Part shown: positions 24,194-31,817 of the stretch, piece by piece
How positions within the stretch are numbered: position 1 is the first letter of the stretch
How the letters are laid out: each line of letters begins with the position of its first letter
From: a bacterium
Lineage (GTDB): Bacteria > Campylobacterota > Campylobacteria > Campylobacterales > Arcobacteraceae
DNA: 37,011 bases
Assembly (NCBI GenBank): GCA_018816105.1
Contig: JAHIWE010000015.1
Location: 1 to 37,011 of the forward strand
Direction: 5' to 3'
Program-made: the position numbers and the translations under genes
Notes under the pieces: model-generated
The model's database searches: none
Told to the model about the DNA's origin: nothing
What the model saw: only the letters and a program-made list of their open reading frames with translations

Positions 24194-24901
24194 ATGGATA
24201 TTCTACCAGCGATTGATTTAAAAGATGGAAAAGCAGTAAGACTTAGTAAAGGGCTTATGGATAGTGCTAAAATCTACTCAGATGAGCCATGGCAAGTGGC
24301 AAAGAGATTTGAAGAGTTAGGGTCTAAATGGGTGCATATCGTTGATTTAAACGGAGCATTTGAGGGGAAACCTGCAAACCTAGAACAAATCAAAAAAATT
24401 AGAGAAAACTGTAATCTAAAAATCGAACTTGGTGGTGGGATTAGAGATGAAGAAACTATTAAAATGTATGTTGAATTAGGAGTTGATAGATTAATTCTTG
24501 GTTCAATTGCTGTTAAAAATCCACAGTTTGTAAAAGATATGGCAGCAAAGTATCCAATCGCTGTGGGAATTGATGCCATGAATGGAATGGTTGCAGTAGA
24601 AGGTTGGGCAGAGGTTTCAACAATGAAAGCTACTGATTTAGCACAAGACTTTGCAAATGCAGGAGTTCAAGCTATTATTTGTACTGATATAAGTAAAGAT
24701 GGAATGCTTTGTGGTGTAAATGTAGAGTTCACTGAATCAATTGCACTTGCATCTAATGTTGATACTATTGCCTCTGGCGGTGTAAAAGACATAAACGATA
24801 TTATTAACTGTAAAGCAAATGGAAATATTTCAGGTGTAATAGTTGGAAAAGCATTTTACGAAGGAACACTTGATTTAGAAGAAGCTTTTAAAGTACTTTA
24901 A
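24194..24901 (+). CDS. hisA: phosphoribosylformimino-5-aminoimidazole carboxamide ribotide isomerase
   Basis: This 235-residue TIM-barrel enzyme isomerises ProFAR in histidine synthesis. The first catalytic aspartate is D8 in [13 protein letters not shown], and the second lies in TDISKDG after [14 protein letters not shown]. Phosphate-binding glycines are in GGGIRD and ASGGVKD. Its stop overlaps the start of the following small membrane protein (TAATG). Confidence 0.95.
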
Positions 24902-25059
24902 TGTGCTTAATCATTTCAATTATATTTACAGCTCTTGCATATACATTTTTTGAAGATGGAAATATGCAAGGATTTTATATAAATATCTCTATCGCCCTAT
25001 TTTTTATTTTATTAATGATAAGAAATATTATCAAAACTAAAAAAGAAAGAACTAATTAA
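24901..25059 (+). CDS. small two-helix membrane protein, unknown function
   Basis: This 52-residue reading frame starts on the last base of the hisA stop (TAATG), indicating translational coupling. It encodes a hydrophobic helix ([16 protein letters not shown]), a short acidic loop (EDGNMQG), a second helix (INISIALFFILLMI) and a basic tail (RNIIKTKKERTN), as expected for a small inner-membrane protein. I do not recognise the family. Support for it being real comes from the coupling and from a degenerate copy of its 3' end at 31744-31794, on the other side of the metal island. Confidence 0.7.
   Translation: MCLIISIIFTALAYTFFEDGNMQGFYINISIALFFILLMIRNIIKTKKERTN
24975..25024 (+). repeat. left direct repeat flanking the metal island
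   Basis: This stretch in the 3' half of the small membrane protein gene aligns with 31746-31790: 45 aligned bases with three mismatches, plus a five-base gap in the right copy. Shared blocks include TTATATAAAT, GCCCTATTTTTTATT and AATGATAAGAA. Confidence 0.75.
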
Positions 25060-25068
25060 AAAATACTC

Positions 25069-25114
25069 TTGACAATATATTTTTCATATGATAATATTAT
25101 CATATGAAAAATAT
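25069..25114 (+). promoter_or_regulatory. copper operon promoter with 38-base perfect palindrome operator
   Basis: A consensus -35 TTGACA (25069-25074) is followed at 17 bases by TAATAT (25092-25097). A perfect palindrome with 19-base arms, 25077-25114, covers the spacer, the -10 box and the probable start site; its core is CATATGATAATATTATCATATG split at the centre. A repressor dimer bound here would block the promoter. ArsR/SmtB proteins use AT-rich palindromes over promoters, and an ArsR gene lies in this operon, so autoregulation is the natural reading. Confidence 0.8.
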
Positions 25115-25134
25115 GACATATAAAGAGTATAATC

Positions 25135-25338
25135 ATGAAAAAAACATTTAAAGTAAACAATATTTCTTGTTCTAGTTGTGTAAATTTAATTAAAGGTTCA
25201 TTGGAAGATGATTTTGGACATATAGATATAGATTTATCTACAACACCTAAAGAAGTAACAGTTGAGATTGAAAATAATGAAAAAGAGAATTTTTTTAAAA
25301 AAGAGATGAGCGAAATTGGTTTTGATATCATTGAGTAG
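25135..25338 (+). CDS. heavy-metal-associated (HMA) domain protein, CopZ-like chaperone
   Basis: This 67-residue protein is a single HMA domain with C12 and C15 in NISCSSCVNLI, the CxxC pair that binds Cu(I) in CopZ/Atx1 proteins. The fold pattern continues to EMSEIGFDIIE. It lacks the usual GM before the TCxxC (here NISCSSC), so metal preference is less certain. It is the first gene behind the palindromic promoter. It probably hands copper to the ATPase encoded two genes later. Confidence 0.82.
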   Translation: MKKTFKVNNISCSSCVNLIKGSLEDDFGHIDIDLSTTPKEVTVEIENNEKENFFKKEMSEIGFDIIE

Positions 25339-25344
25339 CATATT

Positions 25345-25722
25345 ATGAATAAATCAAATGAACTTATTCGTTCTTGCTGTGAGGATATTAGTCATATCTC
25401 TGATATAAAAAAGAAACTACCTACAAATTATCAATTAGATGAATTGAGCAATATTTTTAAAGCATTAGGCGATCCAATTAGAGTGAAAATTTTATTTGCA
25501 CTTTTAAAATATGAAATATGTGTTGGAGAAATGGTTAATTTGTTACAATTACCACAATCTCATGTTTCCCATCAATTGAAAAAATTAAGAAAATATAATA
25601 TTGTAGATTTTAAAAAAGATAAAAAAATGTCTTTTTATTACATTAAAAATGAATTTATAAAAACCTTATTAGAAACTACTCTAAAAGGTATAAAGGAAGA
25701 TCAATGGCAAAAGAAACAATAA
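25345..25722 (+). CDS. ArsR/SmtB family metal-responsive repressor
   Basis: This 125-residue winged-helix regulator contains the ArsR core FKALGDPIRVKILFALL (38-54) and a recognition helix QSHVSHQLKKLRKYNIV. Candidate metal ligands are C11/C12 in the N-terminal extension and C59 in EICVGEM, where CadC/ArsR-type sensors carry cysteines. The layout is therefore CadC-like rather than SmtB-like. It probably represses this operon from the palindrome at 25077 and releases when metal binds. It lies six bases after the HMA gene and overlaps the ATPase gene by 19 bases. Confidence 0.87.
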   Translation: MNKSNELIRSCCEDISHISDIKKKLPTNYQLDELSNIFKALGDPIRVKILFALLKYEICVGEMVNLLQLPQSHVSHQLKKLRKYNIVDFKKDKKMSFYYIKNEFIKTLLETTLKGIKEDQWQKKQ

Positions 25723-27884
25723 AACTAAATATTTCAGGTATGACTTGTGTAAATTGTTCTAATGGAATTGAAAAAGCTGTAAATAAGCTAGATGGTTTAG
25801 AATCATCAAAAGTAAGTTTTGCTTCAAATGAAGGTGAATTTTCTATTGATAATAAACTTTTAAATAAAGAAACTTTAATTAGTAAAATCAAAAAACTAGG
25901 TTATGGAGTTGAAGAAGATTTAAAAGCTTTAGAAAAAGCTAAACTTATAGATTATAATAAATTGAGAAATATTTTTTCTATAAGTATGACCTTAACTATA
26001 GTTATGTTTTATTTTGCATTCTTTCCAATTGAAAATAGCCAAAACAATCAATATATTATGTTTGTTCTAGCAACAATCGTGCAGTTTTATGCAGGAAGAA
26101 GATTTTATACTTTAGCTTATAAGGCTGTTAGTAATAACAATTATGATATGAATGTATTAGTTGCTTTAGGTACTAGTGCTGCATATTTTTATTCTGTTTT
26201 TGTAGTCTTTTTCCCTTCACTATTTCCTGAAAATTTACGATTTTTATATTTTGATGGTGCTGCTGTAATAATTAGTTTTATTCTTTTGGGACGTTTACTT
26301 GAAGAACGTTCAAAAGCAAAAGCTACAGATTTTTTGAAAAAACTTATGGACTTAGCTCCTTTAAATGCAACATTAATTTGTGAAGATGGTAGTTTTAAAA
26401 CTGTTCTGGCTAGTGAACTAAAAGTTGGTGATAAAGTTTTAATAAAAACAGGTGAGAAAATATCTACGGATGCAGTTATAAGTAAAGGAAGTGCTGATAT
26501 TGATACTTCTATGATTACAGGGGAATCAATGCCTGTATACAAAACTATCGGTGATGAAGTAATTGCTGGAACTTTAAATACAACTGGAGTTATAGAAGTT
26601 GTAGTATTAAAGCAATCAAATGATACTACATTATCAAAGATAATTACACTTTTAAGTACTGCACAAAGTAAAAAACTTCCAATAAGTAGATTTGCTGATA
26701 ATGTTGCAAATATTTTTGTTCCAACGGTTATTATCATTTCAATTCTTACTTTTTTCGCTTGGTATTTTATAGTAGGAAATGCTTTAAATGCTATTTTAGC
26801 ATCTATCTCTGTTTTAGTTATTTCATGTCCTTGTGCTTTAGGTCTTGCAACTCCTATTGCAATTGTAAGCTCAGTTGGAAAAGGTGCACAAGAAGGAATA
26901 TTAATAAAAAATCCTGAAATTCTTGAAATTATAAAAGATATAAAATATGCAGTATTTGATAAAACAGGAACTATTACAAAAGGAATTATTTCAGTTAAAG
27001 ATGCAATTTATGAAGAAAAATATTTAGATATTTTAGCATCACTTGAAACAAAAAGTGAACATCCCATCTCAAAAGCAGTTGTAGTTTTTGCACAAACAAA
27101 AAATATACTCATAAATAAAGAGTTTGAAAATATCAAAATAATTGCAGGCCTTGGAATTAAGGCAATATATGAAAATAAAGAAATATTGATAGGTTCTTTA
27201 TCTTTTTTAGAAAAAAATAGCATTAACTTAGATAGTAAGTATTTAGATTTTTATAATACCTCATTAAATAATGGAGCAGGTGTTATTTTAGCATCTATTG
27301 AAAAAAAGTGTGTTGCTGTTTTTGCTTTAGAAGATAGTATTAAAGATGGAGCAAAAGAGTTAATAGCAGATTTAAAAGCAAAAAATATTACTCCTATATT
27401 ATTAACAGGGGACAATCAAATTACTGCAAATAGTGTTGCAAAAGAGCTAAATATTGATAAAGTTTATGCCCAAGTTTTACCTGATGAAAAATATAAAGTG
27501 ATTATAGAACTTCAAAAAGAAGCAAAAGTTATGTTTGTTGGTGATGGAATAAACGATTCACCATCTATTAAACAAGCAGATATTGGTATTACTTTAAATT
27601 CTGGTTCTGATATTACAAAAGATGCTGGAGATATTATCTTAATAAATAATGATTTAAAAGCAGTATCAAAAAGTATAAATTTATCTATTGAATCAATGAA
27701 AGTAATAAAACAAAATTTGTTTTGGGCTTTTATTTATAATGTAGGAGGTATTCCCTTAGCAGCTGGAATCTTCTATCCTATTTTTGGAGTAATGCTAACT
27801 CCTATGTATGCAGGAATTGCAATGAGCTTTTCATCTGTAACTGTTGTATTAAATTCTTTACGTTTAAAATTTAAAAAGATTTAG
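25704..27884 (+). CDS. copA: copper-exporting P1B-type ATPase
   Basis: This 726-residue ATPase has an N-terminal HMA domain with C15 and C18 (GMTCVNCSNG), eight membrane helices, TGES in the actuator domain, the CPC metal site at 375-377, the phosphorylated D419 in DKTGT, SEHPIS in the nucleotide-binding domain and GDGINDSP in the hinge. YN in the seventh helix and M..SS in the eighth (MSFSSVTVVLNSLRL) fit the Cu(I)-type P1B-1 group. It pumps cytoplasmic Cu(I) across the inner membrane. The start overlaps the ArsR gene, so the three genes form one coupled unit ending at a strong hairpin. Confidence 0.94.
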   Translation: MAKETIKLNISGMTCVNCSNGIEKAVNKLDGLESSKVSFASNEGEFSIDNKLLNKETLISKIKKLGYGVEEDLKALEKAKLIDYNKLRNIFSISMTLTIVMFYFAFFPIENSQNNQYIMFVLATIVQFYAGRRFYTLAYKAVSNNNYDMNVLVALGTSAAYFYSVFVVFFPSLFPENLRFLYFDGAAVIISFILLGRLLEERSKAKATDFLKKLMDLAPLNATLICEDGSFKTVLASELKVGDKVLIKTGEKISTDAVISKGSADIDTSMITGESMPVYKTIGDEVIAGTLNTTGVIEVVVLKQSNDTTLSKIITLLSTAQSKKLPISRFADNVANIFVPTVIIISILTFFAWYFIVGNALNAILASISVLVISCPCALGLATPIAIVSSVGKGAQEGILIKNPEILEIIKDIKYAVFDKTGTITKGIISVKDAIYEEKYLDILASLETKSEHPISKAVVVFAQTKNILINKEFENIKIIAGLGIKAIYENKEILIGSLSFLEKNSINLDSKYLDFYNTSLNNGAGVILASIEKKCVAVFALEDSIKDGAKELIADLKAKNITPILLTGDNQITANSVAKELNIDKVYAQVLPDEKYKVIIELQKEAKVMFVGDGINDSPSIKQADIGITLNSGSDITKDAGDIILINNDLKAVSKSINLSIESMKVIKQNLFWAFIYNVGGIPLAAGIFYPIFGVMLTPMYAGIAMSFSSVTVVLNSLRLKFKKI

Positions 27885-27920
27885 TGAGAGATAATTATTT
27901 ATCTCTCACTTTTCTTTTTT
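27883..27920 (+). terminator. intrinsic terminator after copA
   Basis: A perfect 12-base stem (AGTGAGAGATAA, loop TTAT, complementary arm) begins inside the copA stop codon and is followed by TTTCTTTTTT. It closes the HMA-ArsR-CopA operon. Confidence 0.9.
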
Positions 27921-28013
27921 AATCCTCAACATGCTAAGCAAAGATTTAAAATAGGCAATTGTCTCCTCTTTTTCTTCATGAGTTAATATATTCATCATAT
28001 TTTGCACTACTAT
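27906..28013 (-). pseudogene. short C-terminal remnant, possibly of a MarR-type regulator
   Basis: On the minus strand about 35 codons read VQNMMNILTHEEKEETIAY and then a leucine-rich helix ending RIKKEK before a stop at 27906-27908. The helix pattern resembles the C-terminal dimerisation helix of MarR proteins, but two stop codons stand directly upstream and no DNA-binding domain is present. The remaining gap, 28014-28187, shows no gene; it holds the promoter of the next gene. Confidence 0.25.
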
Positions 28014-28152
28014 TGATTATTATCTCCATGGCATGAAGCACTATTTCTTAAAAGTACTTGTTTTCCAAGTTTAACTTATATATTTAGCTTTCAATAATTA
28101 TGCATAGACAAACAGAAATTCATATTTCCACGTTGCTTCCTTATTAGATTAC

Positions 28153-28158
28153 TATAAT
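28153..28158 (+). promoter_or_regulatory. -10 box upstream of the small secreted protein gene
   Basis: A consensus TATAAT lies 30 bases before the ATG at 28188. The ribosome binding site is AAAGGA at about 28176. Confidence 0.55.
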
Positions 28159-28187
28159 TCAACATATAAAAAATCAAAGGATATAAA

Positions 28188-28406
28188 ATGAAAAAATTAA
28201 CAATCATAGTTTTAGTAGCAGGTTTATTTGCTGGAAGTTTATTTGCAAGTGAAAATAATTCAATGATGGGGATGGATAAAGAAAAATGTATGGCAATGTA
28301 TAAATCAATGCACCAAGATGTAAAAAAAAATAGTTCATCAAAACTTGAACAACATCAAAATATTCTTAATCCTGATAGATCTGAATCTCAATTATATGAG
28401 GGATGA
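28188..28406 (+). CDS. small secreted Met/His/Cys-containing protein, possible metal binder
   Basis: This 72-residue protein has a clear signal peptide (MKKLTIIVLVAGLFAGSLFA, cleaved before SENN). The mature part of about 52 residues has a cluster MMGMDKEKCMAMYKSMHQD, six methionines with one cysteine and one histidine, a composition common in periplasmic copper-binding peptides. The last 20 residues are polar and uninformative, so a frameshifted C-terminus is possible. I do not recognise the family. It has its own promoter and terminator between copA and the two-component genes. Confidence 0.65.
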   Translation: MKKLTIIVLVAGLFAGSLFASENNSMMGMDKEKCMAMYKSMHQDVKKNSSSKLEQHQNILNPDRSESQLYEG

Positions 28407-28450
28407 TTCAATATTAGCTTAAATAATTTTTTTCTTGTAGTTTTTCAATA

Positions 28451-28482
28451 AACCTTCAGGTCTTTACTTGAAGGTTTTTTAT
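28451..28482. terminator. terminator between the small secreted protein and the kinase gene
   Basis: An 8-base stem (AACCTTCA with TGAAGGTT) and a 10-base loop are followed by a T run. It lies between convergent genes and can serve both, though the T run favours the plus strand. Confidence 0.8.
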
Positions 28483-28488
28483 TTATAT

Positions 28489-29676
28489 TTAAAAATACAG
28501 AGAAAAAGTAGTTCCCTCATTTAATCTAGATTCTACTGTAATTTTAATATTATAATCTTTACATATTTTATTAACAATACTTAAACCAATTCCAAAACCA
28601 CCTTGTTCTTCTGTTGCTCTATAATATCTGTTAAATATATCTTTAATTTTTTTTTCTTCTATTCCAATTCCATTATCTTTAATAATTAAAGTTTTATTTT
28701 TTAATGATATATCTATCTTTCCACTCATTTTATTGTATTTAATTGCATTAGACACTAGATTATTAAAAACTCTTACAAAATCATCTTCATTGATTTTATA
28801 TTTAAAATTATTTAAATTTGTATTGATTGTAATTTTCTTTTTTGAAGCTAGGGGCTCAAAATATTTTAATTGTTCTTTTATTGTATTATCCAAAAATAAT
28901 TCATTTATGATTTTTTCTGTTTTATTCTTTGCTAAGAATATATATGTTAAATCTTTATATATTTCTGATACTCTTCTAGCACTTAGTCTTACTCTTTCAA
29001 TTTGTCTAGGTGTCAGATCTTCAGATTCTATTGACATCAAAATTGCACTTATTGGTGTATTTAACTCATGGGTTGTATCTTTAATAAAAGTATTTATTCT
29101 TTTTCTTTCTTCTTTTATTGGTTTTAAAAATAACCTTGCAAGATAAAATCCAATTAATGAAATAATTGAATAAATTAAAACAAAAAAGAAAATAATATCA
29201 ACTCTTAATTTTTCAATTTTTTCAAAATATAAATTCTCTTCGATGGCAATATAAAAAATTCCTAAATGCCCTAATGTTGACTTGTCAATTAATACAAAAT
29301 GTTTTTCGTGTTGTATTAAATCTTTTGAAAAATCTATATTATCATCTAAATTCCCAAAAGTCTTTTCTTTCTTTTCGTTATAAAAAGAAATTTTATAATC
29401 ATTTGTTTCTAATAATTTATCATAATTTAAAGGAGTATTTGACATATGCGAGAATATTATTTGTGAAGATATTTTAGATGTGACATTTTGCATATTTGAT
29501 TTTGTTAAATCAAAATATAAAGTTCGTTCATTTTGATAGTACAAAAATGCCACCAATATCATCAGAATAAAAGATGAACCTAAATAAAGAGTTAAAAACC
29601 TAATAAAGGTTGTTTTTTCACTATTTGTTAAATCTATAACCAACTCCTCTTGTATTTGAAATAAACTCTTCTCCAA
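28489..29676 (-). CDS. two-component sensor histidine kinase
   Basis: This 395-residue inner-membrane kinase has two membrane helices (about residues 26-46 and 150-172) around a periplasmic sensor region of about 100 residues. Then follow the HisKA domain with phosphorylated H203 in THELNTPI and the ATPase domain with NLVSNAIKYN, DNGIGI and GGFGIGLSIV. The sensor region has no cysteines. The first ATG overlaps the end of the response regulator gene by 56 bases; an alternative start a few codons later (TTG near VIDLTNSEK) is possible. It pairs with the response regulator upstream. Within a metal island the likely signal is periplasmic metal; that is inference. Confidence 0.88.
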   Translation of the reverse strand: MEKSLFQIQEELVIDLTNSEKTTFIRFLTLYLGSSFILMILVAFLYYQNERTLYFDLTKSNMQNVTSKISSQIIFSHMSNTPLNYDKLLETNDYKISFYNEKKEKTFGNLDDNIDFSKDLIQHEKHFVLIDKSTLGHLGIFYIAIEENLYFEKIEKLRVDIIFFFVLIYSIISLIGFYLARLFLKPIKEERKRINTFIKDTTHELNTPISAILMSIESEDLTPRQIERVRLSARRVSEIYKDLTYIFLAKNKTEKIINELFLDNTIKEQLKYFEPLASKKKITINTNLNNFKYKINEDDFVRVFNNLVSNAIKYNKMSGKIDISLKNKTLIIKDNGIGIEEKKIKDIFNRYYRATEEQGGFGIGLSIVNKICKDYNIKITVESRLNEGTTFSLYF

Positions 29677-30277
29677 GAATTTTTCTTAGATTTTTTATAT
29701 ATGTTCTAACAGTAGATGCATTTGGTGAGTCCTCATAAGACCAAACATTTGTACTTAACTCTTCAATACTTACTGTTTTATTATTATTTATTAAATATAG
29801 TAAAATCTCACACTCTTTTTTTGCAAGATGTATTTCTTTCTTGTCTTTTTTTATAAATAGATTTAATCTATCAAGATAAATATTTGGAGAAATTTTTATT
29901 ATTTCATCAGGTAAAATATTAAATAGTCTTTTTATATTATTTATTCTTATATCTAATTCTTTAAGTTCTACTGGTTTTTTAACATAATCATCACAACCTG
30001 AATCAAAACCTTTTTCAATATCATCTACCATATTTAAAGATGTTAAAAAAATAGCAGGTGTTTTTATATCATTTTTTCTAGCATTTTTTAATAAATCAAA
30101 ACCATTAACTACAGGTACATTTACATCAAAAAGAAATAAATCAAATTTTTGAGAATAAATTAGTTCTTGTGCTTCATCTCCACTATATGCTGAAATAACT
30201 TCATAACCTTTATTTTGCAAGTGTTCTTCCATGATTTCATTTAGTAATATATCATCTTCAAGTAAGAGTATCTTCAT
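29621..30277 (-). CDS. OmpR-family response regulator (kinase-linked)
   Basis: This 218-residue regulator has a receiver domain with E7/D8/D9, phosphorylated D51 in LFDVNVP and K101 in VKKP, and a winged-helix DNA-binding domain ending RGVGYRFNK. I place the start at the ATG at 30275-30277, which has AAAGGA seven bases before it and gives the standard MKILLLEDD opening. A longer frame to 30376 would run through the palindrome at 30304-30328 and is unlikely. It is divergent from the SHOCT gene and overlaps its kinase. Confidence 0.9.
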   Translation of the reverse strand: MKILLLEDDILLNEIMEEHLQNKGYEVISAYSGDEAQELIYSQKFDLFLFDVNVPVVNGFDLLKNARKNDIKTPAIFLTSLNMVDDIEKGFDSGCDDYVKKPVELKELDIRINNIKRLFNILPDEIIKISPNIYLDRLNLFIKKDKKEIHLAKKECEILLYLINNNKTVSIEELSTNVWSYEDSPNASTVRTYIKNLRKILGEEFISNTRGVGYRFNK

Positions 30278-30303
30278 TAAAATCCTTTGAAGAATTTTAG
30301 CAT

Positions 30304-30328
30304 AAAGAAGATTTATTAAATCTTCTTT
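30304..30328. promoter_or_regulatory. 25-base palindrome in the divergent promoter region
   Basis: AAAGAAGATTTA and its exact complement TAAATCTTCTTT are separated by one base, midway between the divergent regulator (-) and SHOCT (+) genes. Position and symmetry suit an operator for one of the two response regulators or another dimeric regulator. No T run that would make it a terminator follows. Confidence 0.5.
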
Positions 30329-30396
30329 CTTTGAGATTAGACTCTCCTCACATACTCCACATTCTTCTGATAACATTAAGAAAAAAAGGATTTAAA

Positions 30397-30603
30397 ATGT
30401 TTGATTTTATGAATATGAATATGACACTATTTCATGGTTTTTCAATGTTTATTTTTTGGGCAATATTTTTTTATTTAATATTATCAATAGATAAAAAAGA
30501 AAAATCATCAGTAATAGATATTTTAAAAAAAAGATTAGCAAAAGGTGAAATATCTCAAGAACAATTTGAATCAATAAAAACTACATTAAAAGAAGGAAAT
30601 TAA
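30397..30603 (+). CDS. small membrane protein with SHOCT domain
   Basis: This 68-residue protein begins MFDFMNMNMTLFHG, then one membrane helix (FSMFIFWAIFFYLILSI), then a SHOCT motif (IDILKKRLAKGEISQEQFESIK), a short helical module found at the ends of many membrane-associated proteins. The start at 30397 follows AAAAAGGATTTAAA, a strong ribosome binding site; an upstream frame from 30331 crosses the regulatory palindrome. The methionine-rich N-terminus may bind metal. It lies two bases before the DUF411 gene. Confidence 0.8.
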   Translation: MFDFMNMNMTLFHGFSMFIFWAIFFYLILSIDKKEKSSVIDILKKRLAKGEISQEQFESIKTTLKEGN

Positions 30604-30605
30604 AT

Positions 30606-31034
30606 ATGAAGAAAATAATTTTATTTTTAGCACTAATAACAAGTTCAGTTTTTGCAATGGAAGGTAAAACTATGACAGTTTACAAATCACCTTCTTGTGG
30701 TTGTTGTACTAAGTGGATTGATATTATGAAAAGTAAAGGTTTTGAAGTAAAAACTATTGAAACCAATGAAGTTAATACTATAAAACAAAAGGCTGGTTTA
30801 CAAGCTGGACAAACATCATGTCATACAGCATTTGTTGATGGCTATGTAGTTGAAGGGCATGTTGATTATAGTGCAGTTAAAAAAATGCTTGATGAAAAGC
30901 CTAATATTATAGGAATTACTGTTCCTGGAATGCCTATTGGAAGTCCTGGGATGGAGCAAGGAAATACTAAACAAGCTTATAATGTATTATCTGTAAATAA
31001 AGATGGTTCTACAGATGTATATGAAGCTCACTAA
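30606..31034 (+). CDS. DUF411 family periplasmic metal-associated protein
   Basis: This 142-residue protein has a signal peptide (MKKIILFLALITSSVFA) and a DUF411 domain. YKSPSCGCCTKW supplies C31, C33 and C34, and SCHTAFVDGYVVEGHV supplies C72 and H73. The final GMPIGSPGME segment is typical. DUF411 proteins recur in copper and silver resistance clusters (CopG-like) and are thought to bind or reduce copper in the periplasm through the cysteine cluster. It is co-transcribed with the SHOCT gene, and the second response regulator follows 30 bases after its stop. Confidence 0.87.
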   Translation: MKKIILFLALITSSVFAMEGKTMTVYKSPSCGCCTKWIDIMKSKGFEVKTIETNEVNTIKQKAGLQAGQTSCHTAFVDGYVVEGHVDYSAVKKMLDEKPNIIGITVPGMPIGSPGMEQGNTKQAYNVLSVNKDGSTDVYEAH

Positions 31035-31064
31035 AAAATAAATATTTGATTGGATATTAATAAA

Positions 31065-31727
31065 ATGAAAATACTTTTACTTGAAGATGATGTGATTTTA
31101 AATGAAATAATTGAAGAGCGTTTATTAACTTTAAAGTATGAGGTAACAAGTGTTTTTGATGGTGATATTGCCGAAGAACTAATATATGAAGAAAATTTTG
31201 ACCTTCTTTTATTTGATGTAAATGTTCCAAATATTACTGGATTTGAGTTGTTAAATAATATTCGTCAAAATAATATTAATATTCCAACAATATTTATAAC
31301 ATCTAGAAATACTTCTGAAGATGTAAAAATAGGATTTAATTCAGGGTGTGATGATTATATTAAAAAACCATTTGATTTAAGTGAATTACAACTTAGAATT
31401 GAAAATATAAAAAAATTACGACAAATTGAAAGTGATGGACAAGTAAAAATTGATAAAGATACTTCATATAATTATGAAAGAAAAATCATTTTTAGAAATA
31501 ATAAAGAGTTTAATTTATCAAAAATAGAATCAAAGATTTTAGAGTATTTCATAAAGAATAAAAATAAAACACTTTCAATAGACCAAATATCAGTAAATAA
31601 TTGGCTTTATGATGAAGTTCCAGAAGCTACAACAATCCGAACTTATATTAAAAATCTAAGGAAAAAACTTAATGATAAAACAATAACAACTCTAAAAGGA
31701 ATTGGGTATAGATTTAATATTAGATAA
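31065..31727 (+). CDS. OmpR-family response regulator, orphan paralogue
   Basis: This 220-residue protein is about 50% identical by eye to the regulator at 29621 and has the same receiver (E7/D8/D9, D51 in LFDVNVP, K101 in IKKP) and winged-helix output ending KGIGYRFNIR. I chose the ATG at 31065 (MKILLLEDDV), matching its paralogue; the frame extends five codons to a TTG at 31050 without better support. No histidine kinase is adjacent, so it may share the kinase at 28489. Confidence 0.88.
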   Translation: MKILLLEDDVILNEIIEERLLTLKYEVTSVFDGDIAEELIYEENFDLLLFDVNVPNITGFELLNNIRQNNINIPTIFITSRNTSEDVKIGFNSGCDDYIKKPFDLSELQLRIENIKKLRQIESDGQVKIDKDTSYNYERKIIFRNNKEFNLSKIESKILEYFIKNKNKTLSIDQISVNNWLYDEVPEATTIRTYIKNLRKKLNDKTITTLKGIGYRFNIR

Positions 31728-31743
31728 TATTAATTAACTTATT

Positions 31744-31794
31744 TCTTATATAAATACATCTATAGCCCTATTTTTTATTAATGATAAGAATTAA
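31744..31794 (+). pseudogene. degenerate displaced 3' end of the small membrane protein gene
   Basis: In one frame this reads SYINTSIALFFI, matching YINISIALFFI of the protein at 24901. A five-base deletion then shifts the frame to a stop at 31792-31794. The DNA from 31746 to 31790 aligns with 24975-25024 at 42 of 45 bases plus the gap. The two copies bracket the metal island exactly at its ends, and MutS lies 23 bases further on the opposite strand. Confidence 0.7.
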
Positions 31795-31817
31795 GGAAGA
31801 CAGAAATTTGTAAGAAC

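Follow-up and report, generated by a model that had tools for sequence, protein, structure and literature searches.

A composite copper gene island in the variable hisA-mutS locus of the Arcobacteraceae, with a decayed piece of ypmT at its mutS edge

Introduction

The mutS-rpoS region of Escherichia coli is reportedly variable and mosaic. The locus described here is likewise mosaic beside mutS, but it lies in another bacterial family and the neighbour is hisA, which it is not in E. coli; no common origin is claimed. The stretch analysed (the window, 37,011 nucleotides) is contig JAHIWE010000015.1 of an Arcobacteraceae genome (GCA_018816105.1, G000 below). The element in question is a set of copper genes between hisA and mutS, with an intact small gene, ypmT, at its left edge and a decayed piece of that gene, the scrap, at its right edge.

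The closest described systems are hotspots between fixed core genes. According to PMC5635113, hotspots often carry no mobile elements, and those poor in mobile elements are over-represented in transformable bacteria. The locus resembles them in that two core genes flank changing accessory content and no recombinase was seen in the island. It differs in that content was compared across species and genera, not among strains of one species. Aliarcobacter butzleri is naturally transformable (PMC8308473); the names of the relatives matched by the small gene of the window suggest that the window belongs to the same genus. PMC3240628 describes integration in which one end is homologous and the other illegitimate.

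hisA and mutS bound a variable locus

The copper set of the window is an insertion in a locus that varies across the family, a "cargo bay" between hisA and mutS. The genes that frame it are as follows.

24194..24901, + strand: hisA, left conserved flank; all 31 genus genomes have it (E ≤ 0.001)
24901..25059, + strand: ypmT, gene for a YpmT-like small membrane protein (52 residues), intact left copy; Pfam PF17431
31818..34772, − strand: mutS, right conserved flank; in 31 of 31 genus genomes, and in 94 of 104 family genomes at E ≤ 1e-80

The genus set comprises 31 genomes, including G000, and the family set 104. hisA and mutS are convergent neighbours and share one contig in 29 of the 31 genus genomes; the gap between them is 1.48-17.96 kb in 26. 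The comparison with other genera covers 66 genomes. Five of 71 hisA matches (G036-G039 and G069) had no mutS match and were left out, and the partial mutS matches of G046, G073 and G095, which are on contigs other than that of hisA, were not entered in the gap comparison. The two genes share a contig in 43 of the 66, with gaps of 65-19,870 bp in 42 of these, and are 1.5 Mb apart in G102. Across the family, gaps of 65 bp up to about 20 kb occur with unrelated cargoes, and the accessory content varies between genomes. The smallest gaps are found in G086 (65 bp), G087 (68 bp), G080 (151 bp) and G059 (195 bp), the last two holding ypmT only. The same two core genes bound the interval in the relatives, with exceptions in which they are on separate contigs or rearranged (G016, G027, G028, G102). 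The far side of mutS does not vary among the 30 loci examined. The gene preceding hisA is common to only 17 of 30, which makes the left side the more variable one.

G016 (genes far apart), G027 (about 48 kb) and G028 (about 67 kb) were considered as insertions and rejected. Their intervening genes, judged by eye, look like housekeeping genes, and the three are therefore taken as rearrangements. mutS is split or stop-bearing in G022 (L048), G023 (L059) and G026 (L060) and has one stop in G033, which may mean loss of mismatch repair or errors in the drafts.

The gene content of the gap was examined in 30 genus genomes; G024, with hisA and mutS on separate contigs, was left out. A gene for a 618-residue cyclase-like protein, whose scored representative has a GGDEF domain, stands beside hisA or mutS in 26 of the 30. 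An empty gap as the usual state of the genus was rejected on this count, and none of the genus genomes examined has an empty site. Seven genomes carry a quinohemoprotein amine dehydrogenase-like cluster (alpha and gamma subunits of a representative were scored), G003 and G030 an AcrB-type pump (the protein of G003 was scanned), and G006 a gene set whose single scanned protein is an antiporter/quinone-oxidoreductase subunit. G001 has a 440-residue MFS transporter between ypmT and mutS. At E ≤ 1e-60 neither the genome of the window nor any of the 29 other genus genomes matches this transporter; a relative of it is present in 20 of 42 other-genus loci.

Three of these cargoes deserve separate description. 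The hisA-ypmT-MFS-mutS order of G001 recurs in G054 (L318), a member of another genus, and the two MFS transporters share 89% identity, a likeness that hints at segment exchange between genera. Two quinohemoprotein amine dehydrogenase-like gene sets lie side by side in the gaps of G020 (L107) and G029 (L113). In G035 (L353-L354) the cyclase gene is followed by 19.9 kb of cargo, some genes of which by eye resemble restriction-modification genes.

The copper island is composite

The island consists of two modules with separate relatives. Its features are listed below.

25069..25106, + strand: promoter-like TTGACA-17-TAATAT, partly shared with a perfect palindrome of 22 bases (25085-25106); candidate ArsR operator
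25135..25338, + strand: HMA-type metal-binding protein, module A; PF00403 at 23.8 bits, just under the cut-off of 24.8
25345..25722, + strand: ArsR/SmtB-type regulator, module A; PF01022, and NF033788 at 72.7 bits (cut-off 55)
25704..27884, + strand: CopA-type copper ATPase, module A; TIGR01511 at 565 bits (cut-off 397)
27883..27910, + strand: terminator-like hairpin, end of module A; 3 found against 1.3 expected
28188..28406, + strand: Met-rich small protein, secreted-looking, module B; no Pfam or NCBIfam match
28489..29676, − strand: histidine kinase, module B; PF02518, PF00512
29621..30277, − strand: OmpR-type response regulator, module B; PF00072, PF00486
30397..30603, + strand: SHOCT-domain small protein, module B; PF09851
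30606..31034, + strand: DUF411 protein, module B; PF04214 at 85.5 bits
31065..31727, + strand: second OmpR-type response regulator, module B; PF00072, PF00486

Module A (HMA, ArsR and CopA with their promoter) extends from 25050-25068 to 27883-27910 and shares 79-80% DNA identity with recQ-adjacent units of G029, G020 and G010. These units have the same order and promoter region, but sit behind recQ; the genome of the window has recQ without an HMA-ArsR-CopA unit. In all three relatives the homology starts at 25050-25068, at the ypmT stop. Module B extends from 28096/28116 to 31742 and shares 82-83% DNA identity with parts of copper islands elsewhere in G023, G011 and G006. Its genes encode the Met-rich protein, kinase, regulator, SHOCT protein, DUF411 protein and regulator. 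The islands of these three genomes have the same set in another chromosomal place, and differ in that no ArsR gene separates HMA from CopA and that further genes are present, including one for a 608-residue protein. In each of the three relatives that have the block, homology runs up to 31742 and ends four bases short of the scrap.

The limits of homology place the insertion edges at the ypmT stop (about 25060) and at 31742. They bear out the original prediction, made from the letters of the window, that the copper set is an insertion; the copper genes it listed between the two ypmT copies are present, HMA with the score given above. The CopA protein matches the G006/G011/G023-type islands at 86% and the recQ type at 81%, and because it is closer to the copper islands, module A itself is taken to be mixed. 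A CopA search of genome contigs gave no near kin among the best 80 of at least 591 matches, all with identities of 66% or less.

A Pfam scan of nine island proteins found no recombinase among them, and no tRNA or Rfam match was found in the window.

Placement of ypmT in the family

The ypmT product passes PF17431 with 28.8 bits (cut-off 25) and matches 60 protein clusters, some of them named from Malaciobacter, Arcobacter and Poseidonibacter. A profile search gives a match in 48 of the 104 family genomes; that of G027 is weak, falls inside a larger frame and is probably not real. In 30 ypmT loci that were fetched, hisA directly precedes ypmT in 23 and a cyclase-like gene does so in two (G053 and G085), while five have none of the query genes within 1.5 kb. 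In some genomes ypmT is away from the hisA-mutS locus: in G031, G032, G033 and G058 by 33-40 kb, and in G065 on a separate contig.

The order hisA-ypmT-mutS without other cargo occurs in G059 (gap 195 bp) and G080 (gap 151 bp), which belong to two genera, neither that of the window. The order hisA, small gene, convergent mutS, which had been predicted to be ancestral, thus exists in other genera, but none of the examined genomes of the window's genus has it. In G053 and G060 the order is hisA-cyclase-ypmT-mutS, and ypmT lies 20-29 bp from mutS.

A 201-base region around ypmT has a strong match (E about 1e-34, ≤ 5.4e-35) in six of the 31 genus genomes: G000, G001, G019, G020, G021 and G029. A second match of this region, with E 6.3e-9, is confined to the genome of the window. 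The remaining matches, in 20 of the 31, are weak and cover little length (E no better than 2.9e-6).

A decayed piece of ypmT beside mutS

Part of ypmT recurs at the right edge of the island.

24975..25024, + strand: ypmT stretch recurring at the right edge; repeat comparison
31746..31790, + strand: decayed ypmT scrap, frame-broken, 27 bases from the mutS stop; repeat comparison

Realignment confirms this recurrence as it was predicted. The ungapped core pairs 24975-25008 with 31746-31779 (91% over 34 bases); with a five-base gap the repeat reaches 31790 and 42 of 45 bases agree, and the version given by the aligner is about 3 bases longer. To test the repeat by local alignment, the interval 25060-31817 (6,758 bases) was dinucleotide-shuffled 200 times. 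The repeat scores 63, against a shuffle mean of 31.7 (standard deviation 3.7, maximum 45), and its nearest competitor in the window reaches 40. A chance repeat was rejected because none of the 200 shuffles reaches 63; the repeat is better than shuffled sequence of its kind.

The scrap corresponds to bases 75-124 of the 159-base ypmT. It is an internal piece with the last 35 bases missing, not the 3' part of the small gene that the original prediction made of it. Three substitutions and a five-base gap separate it from the left copy, and the five-base loss breaks its reading frame; in this respect the prediction was right. The 27 bases between the scrap and the mutS stop are chance-like when compared with the ypmT tail (score 13, shuffle mean 14.1). 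Both ends of the scrap are abrupt and the similarity is confined to the piece. When the scrap is compared with the 28 ypmT genes at the locus, the window's own is the best match (63), followed by those of G001 (53) and G019 (52). The scrap therefore derives from the lineage of the window.

These properties bear on the chief rival explanation, in which the scrap is a local copy. About 50 bases of the nearby ypmT would have been copied at the right joint, during repair or by template switching, or a partial tandem duplication of ypmT would have preceded the insertion. The scrap would then record a repair event instead of being what is left of a resident gene. The best match being the ypmT of the same genome, the abrupt ends with nothing similar outside the piece, and a missing 3' end explained without further deletion are all consistent with such copying. 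With three substitutions and five bases lost over a length of 45, however, any copying was not recent, and there is no direct sign of it. Moreover, the scrap stands exactly at the island edge by mutS, where a resident ypmT would stand. We regard a local copy as somewhat unlikely, though it has to be taken seriously.

The scrap might instead be older than the island, the remnant of an ancestral second ypmT beside mutS in an order like that of G053 and G060, with the cargo between the two copies swapped later. The distance of 20-29 bp between ypmT and mutS in those two genomes agrees with this proposal, but the scrap is nearest to the ypmT of the window, and the genes of G053 and G060 score lowest of the 28 against it (21 and 19). 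A pair of ypmT genes was seen in none of the loci read. An older scrap is accordingly judged improbable.

A profile scan for second ypmT traces covered 74 regions from 72 genomes, with at most three traces listed per region. Among the 28 ypmT-bearing loci only that of the window has a second trace (E 0.0073); elsewhere chance traces reach E 0.55 at best. On this count the bracket is not a signature that recurs, and the same bracket with different cargo, for which a search had been proposed, occurs in none of the other 27 loci. Nor does any of the relatives read have the second copy without the island. A search with the right edge gave no other place carrying the scrap.

Integration into gene ends is common, and the original prediction took the right copy for a displaced target end. 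In the site-specific sense, ypmT would be the attachment site, the island would have restored the end of the gene, and the scrap would be the end that was pushed aside. The direct repeat at both edges and the presence of the empty order in other genera are in line with this. The nine island proteins scanned include no recombinase, however, and the window has no tRNA. The repeat is imperfect and internal to the gene, with 35 bases missing from the right copy, so that it is not a displaced gene end; the other 27 loci with ypmT, whether or not they have cargo, lack a second trace; and the two modules have separate relatives. Site-specific integration was rejected as the likely cause on the grounds of the missing recombinase, the internal repeat and the absence of a recurring bracket, and we consider it very improbable.

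An assembly misjoin of unrelated pieces is a further alternative. The draft assembly of G000 has 183 contigs, one of which the window spans from end to end, as such an error would allow. Variable content at the locus is nevertheless found in single-contig genomes too, and a diverged 45-base repeat would be a poor cause of misjoining. The chance of a misjoin is very slight, the slightest of those weighed here.

Predicted roles of the copper genes

The best solved relatives of CopA are copper ATPases. Judged by their families, CopA is predicted to export copper, the HMA protein to carry it and ArsR to control the operon; the kinase and regulator part may control the DUF411 and Met-rich proteins. 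The models for heavy-metal two-component systems of the CopRS/CusRS type (TIGR01386/TIGR01387) failed, with 96 bits against 292.6 for the kinase and 104 and 99 against 279 for the regulators. Because these scores are well below the heavy-metal cut-offs, copper sensing by the kinase and regulators is suggested by gene company only.

The palindrome at 25085-25106 covers the -10 of the promoter-like site before HMA-ArsR-CopA and is partly kept in G029 and G010. As a scan, promoter-like sites are no more frequent in the region than by chance (49, against 54.8 in shuffles). An 81-base inverted repeat (30198-30278 / 31064-31144, 73% complementary) is explained by the two response regulator genes, which are paralogs on opposite strands.

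Discussion

The explanation we prefer, and to which we give about an even chance, is acquisition without an integrase at conserved flanks, which left a ypmT remnant beside mutS. The two copper modules, whose relatives occupy other loci in other strains, would have arrived by uptake of DNA from relatives and recombination. The left joint would have formed by homologous pairing in hisA-ypmT, and the right joint would be illegitimate, lying inside a resident ypmT that adjoined mutS, an order seen in G059 and G080. A piece of the resident ypmT would have stayed beside mutS and then decayed, and a further deletion would have removed the 3' end of ypmT from it. Homology-facilitated illegitimate recombination (PMC3240628) would yield one homologous and one illegitimate edge of this kind.

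Several points weigh against this explanation. The further deletion must be assumed, because the scrap is without the last 35 bases of ypmT and the sequence following it is chance-like. No genome of the window's genus has ypmT beside mutS, the order of G059 and G080 being that of other genera, and the comparison set contains neither a donor joint nor a same-species relative with an empty site. By mutS (97%) and ypmT (87%) G001 comes closest, but not by hisA (97%, versus 98% for G004, G020 and G029), and with recQ of G029 as query G000 is 95% and G001 86% identical. G001 is not relied on as a sister genome because hisA and recQ disagree with mutS and ypmT. The kinase and both regulators pass no heavy-metal NCBIfam cut-off. 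Finally, the site was assigned by its flanks and content; hotspots in the statistical sense have more transferred genes than a threshold simulated for the clade, and more homologous recombination in the flanking genes (PMC5635113).

It is doubtful, though conceivable, that ypmT is itself a preferred breakpoint of an integrase-free exchange site, at which cargo would enter on either side and scraps of ypmT would be footprints. Such shuffling fits the positions of ypmT, which sits beside hisA (23 of 30 loci), beside mutS behind the cyclase gene (G053, G060) or beside both (G059, G080).

A description of the site was not found among the papers listed in searches on hisA/mutS of Aliarcobacter or on copper islands, competence and the pangenome of Arcobacter, which does not prove its absence from print. 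A word search of the main text of the family comparison PMC10336517 returned neither "hotspot" nor "mutS".

The site adds one more case to a type of place already known, and does not amount to a new mechanism. It is well bounded and has empty, single-gene and many-gene states across genera, so that the turnover of cargo without visible integrases can be traced in it, and copper modules of different loci have been combined there at one place.

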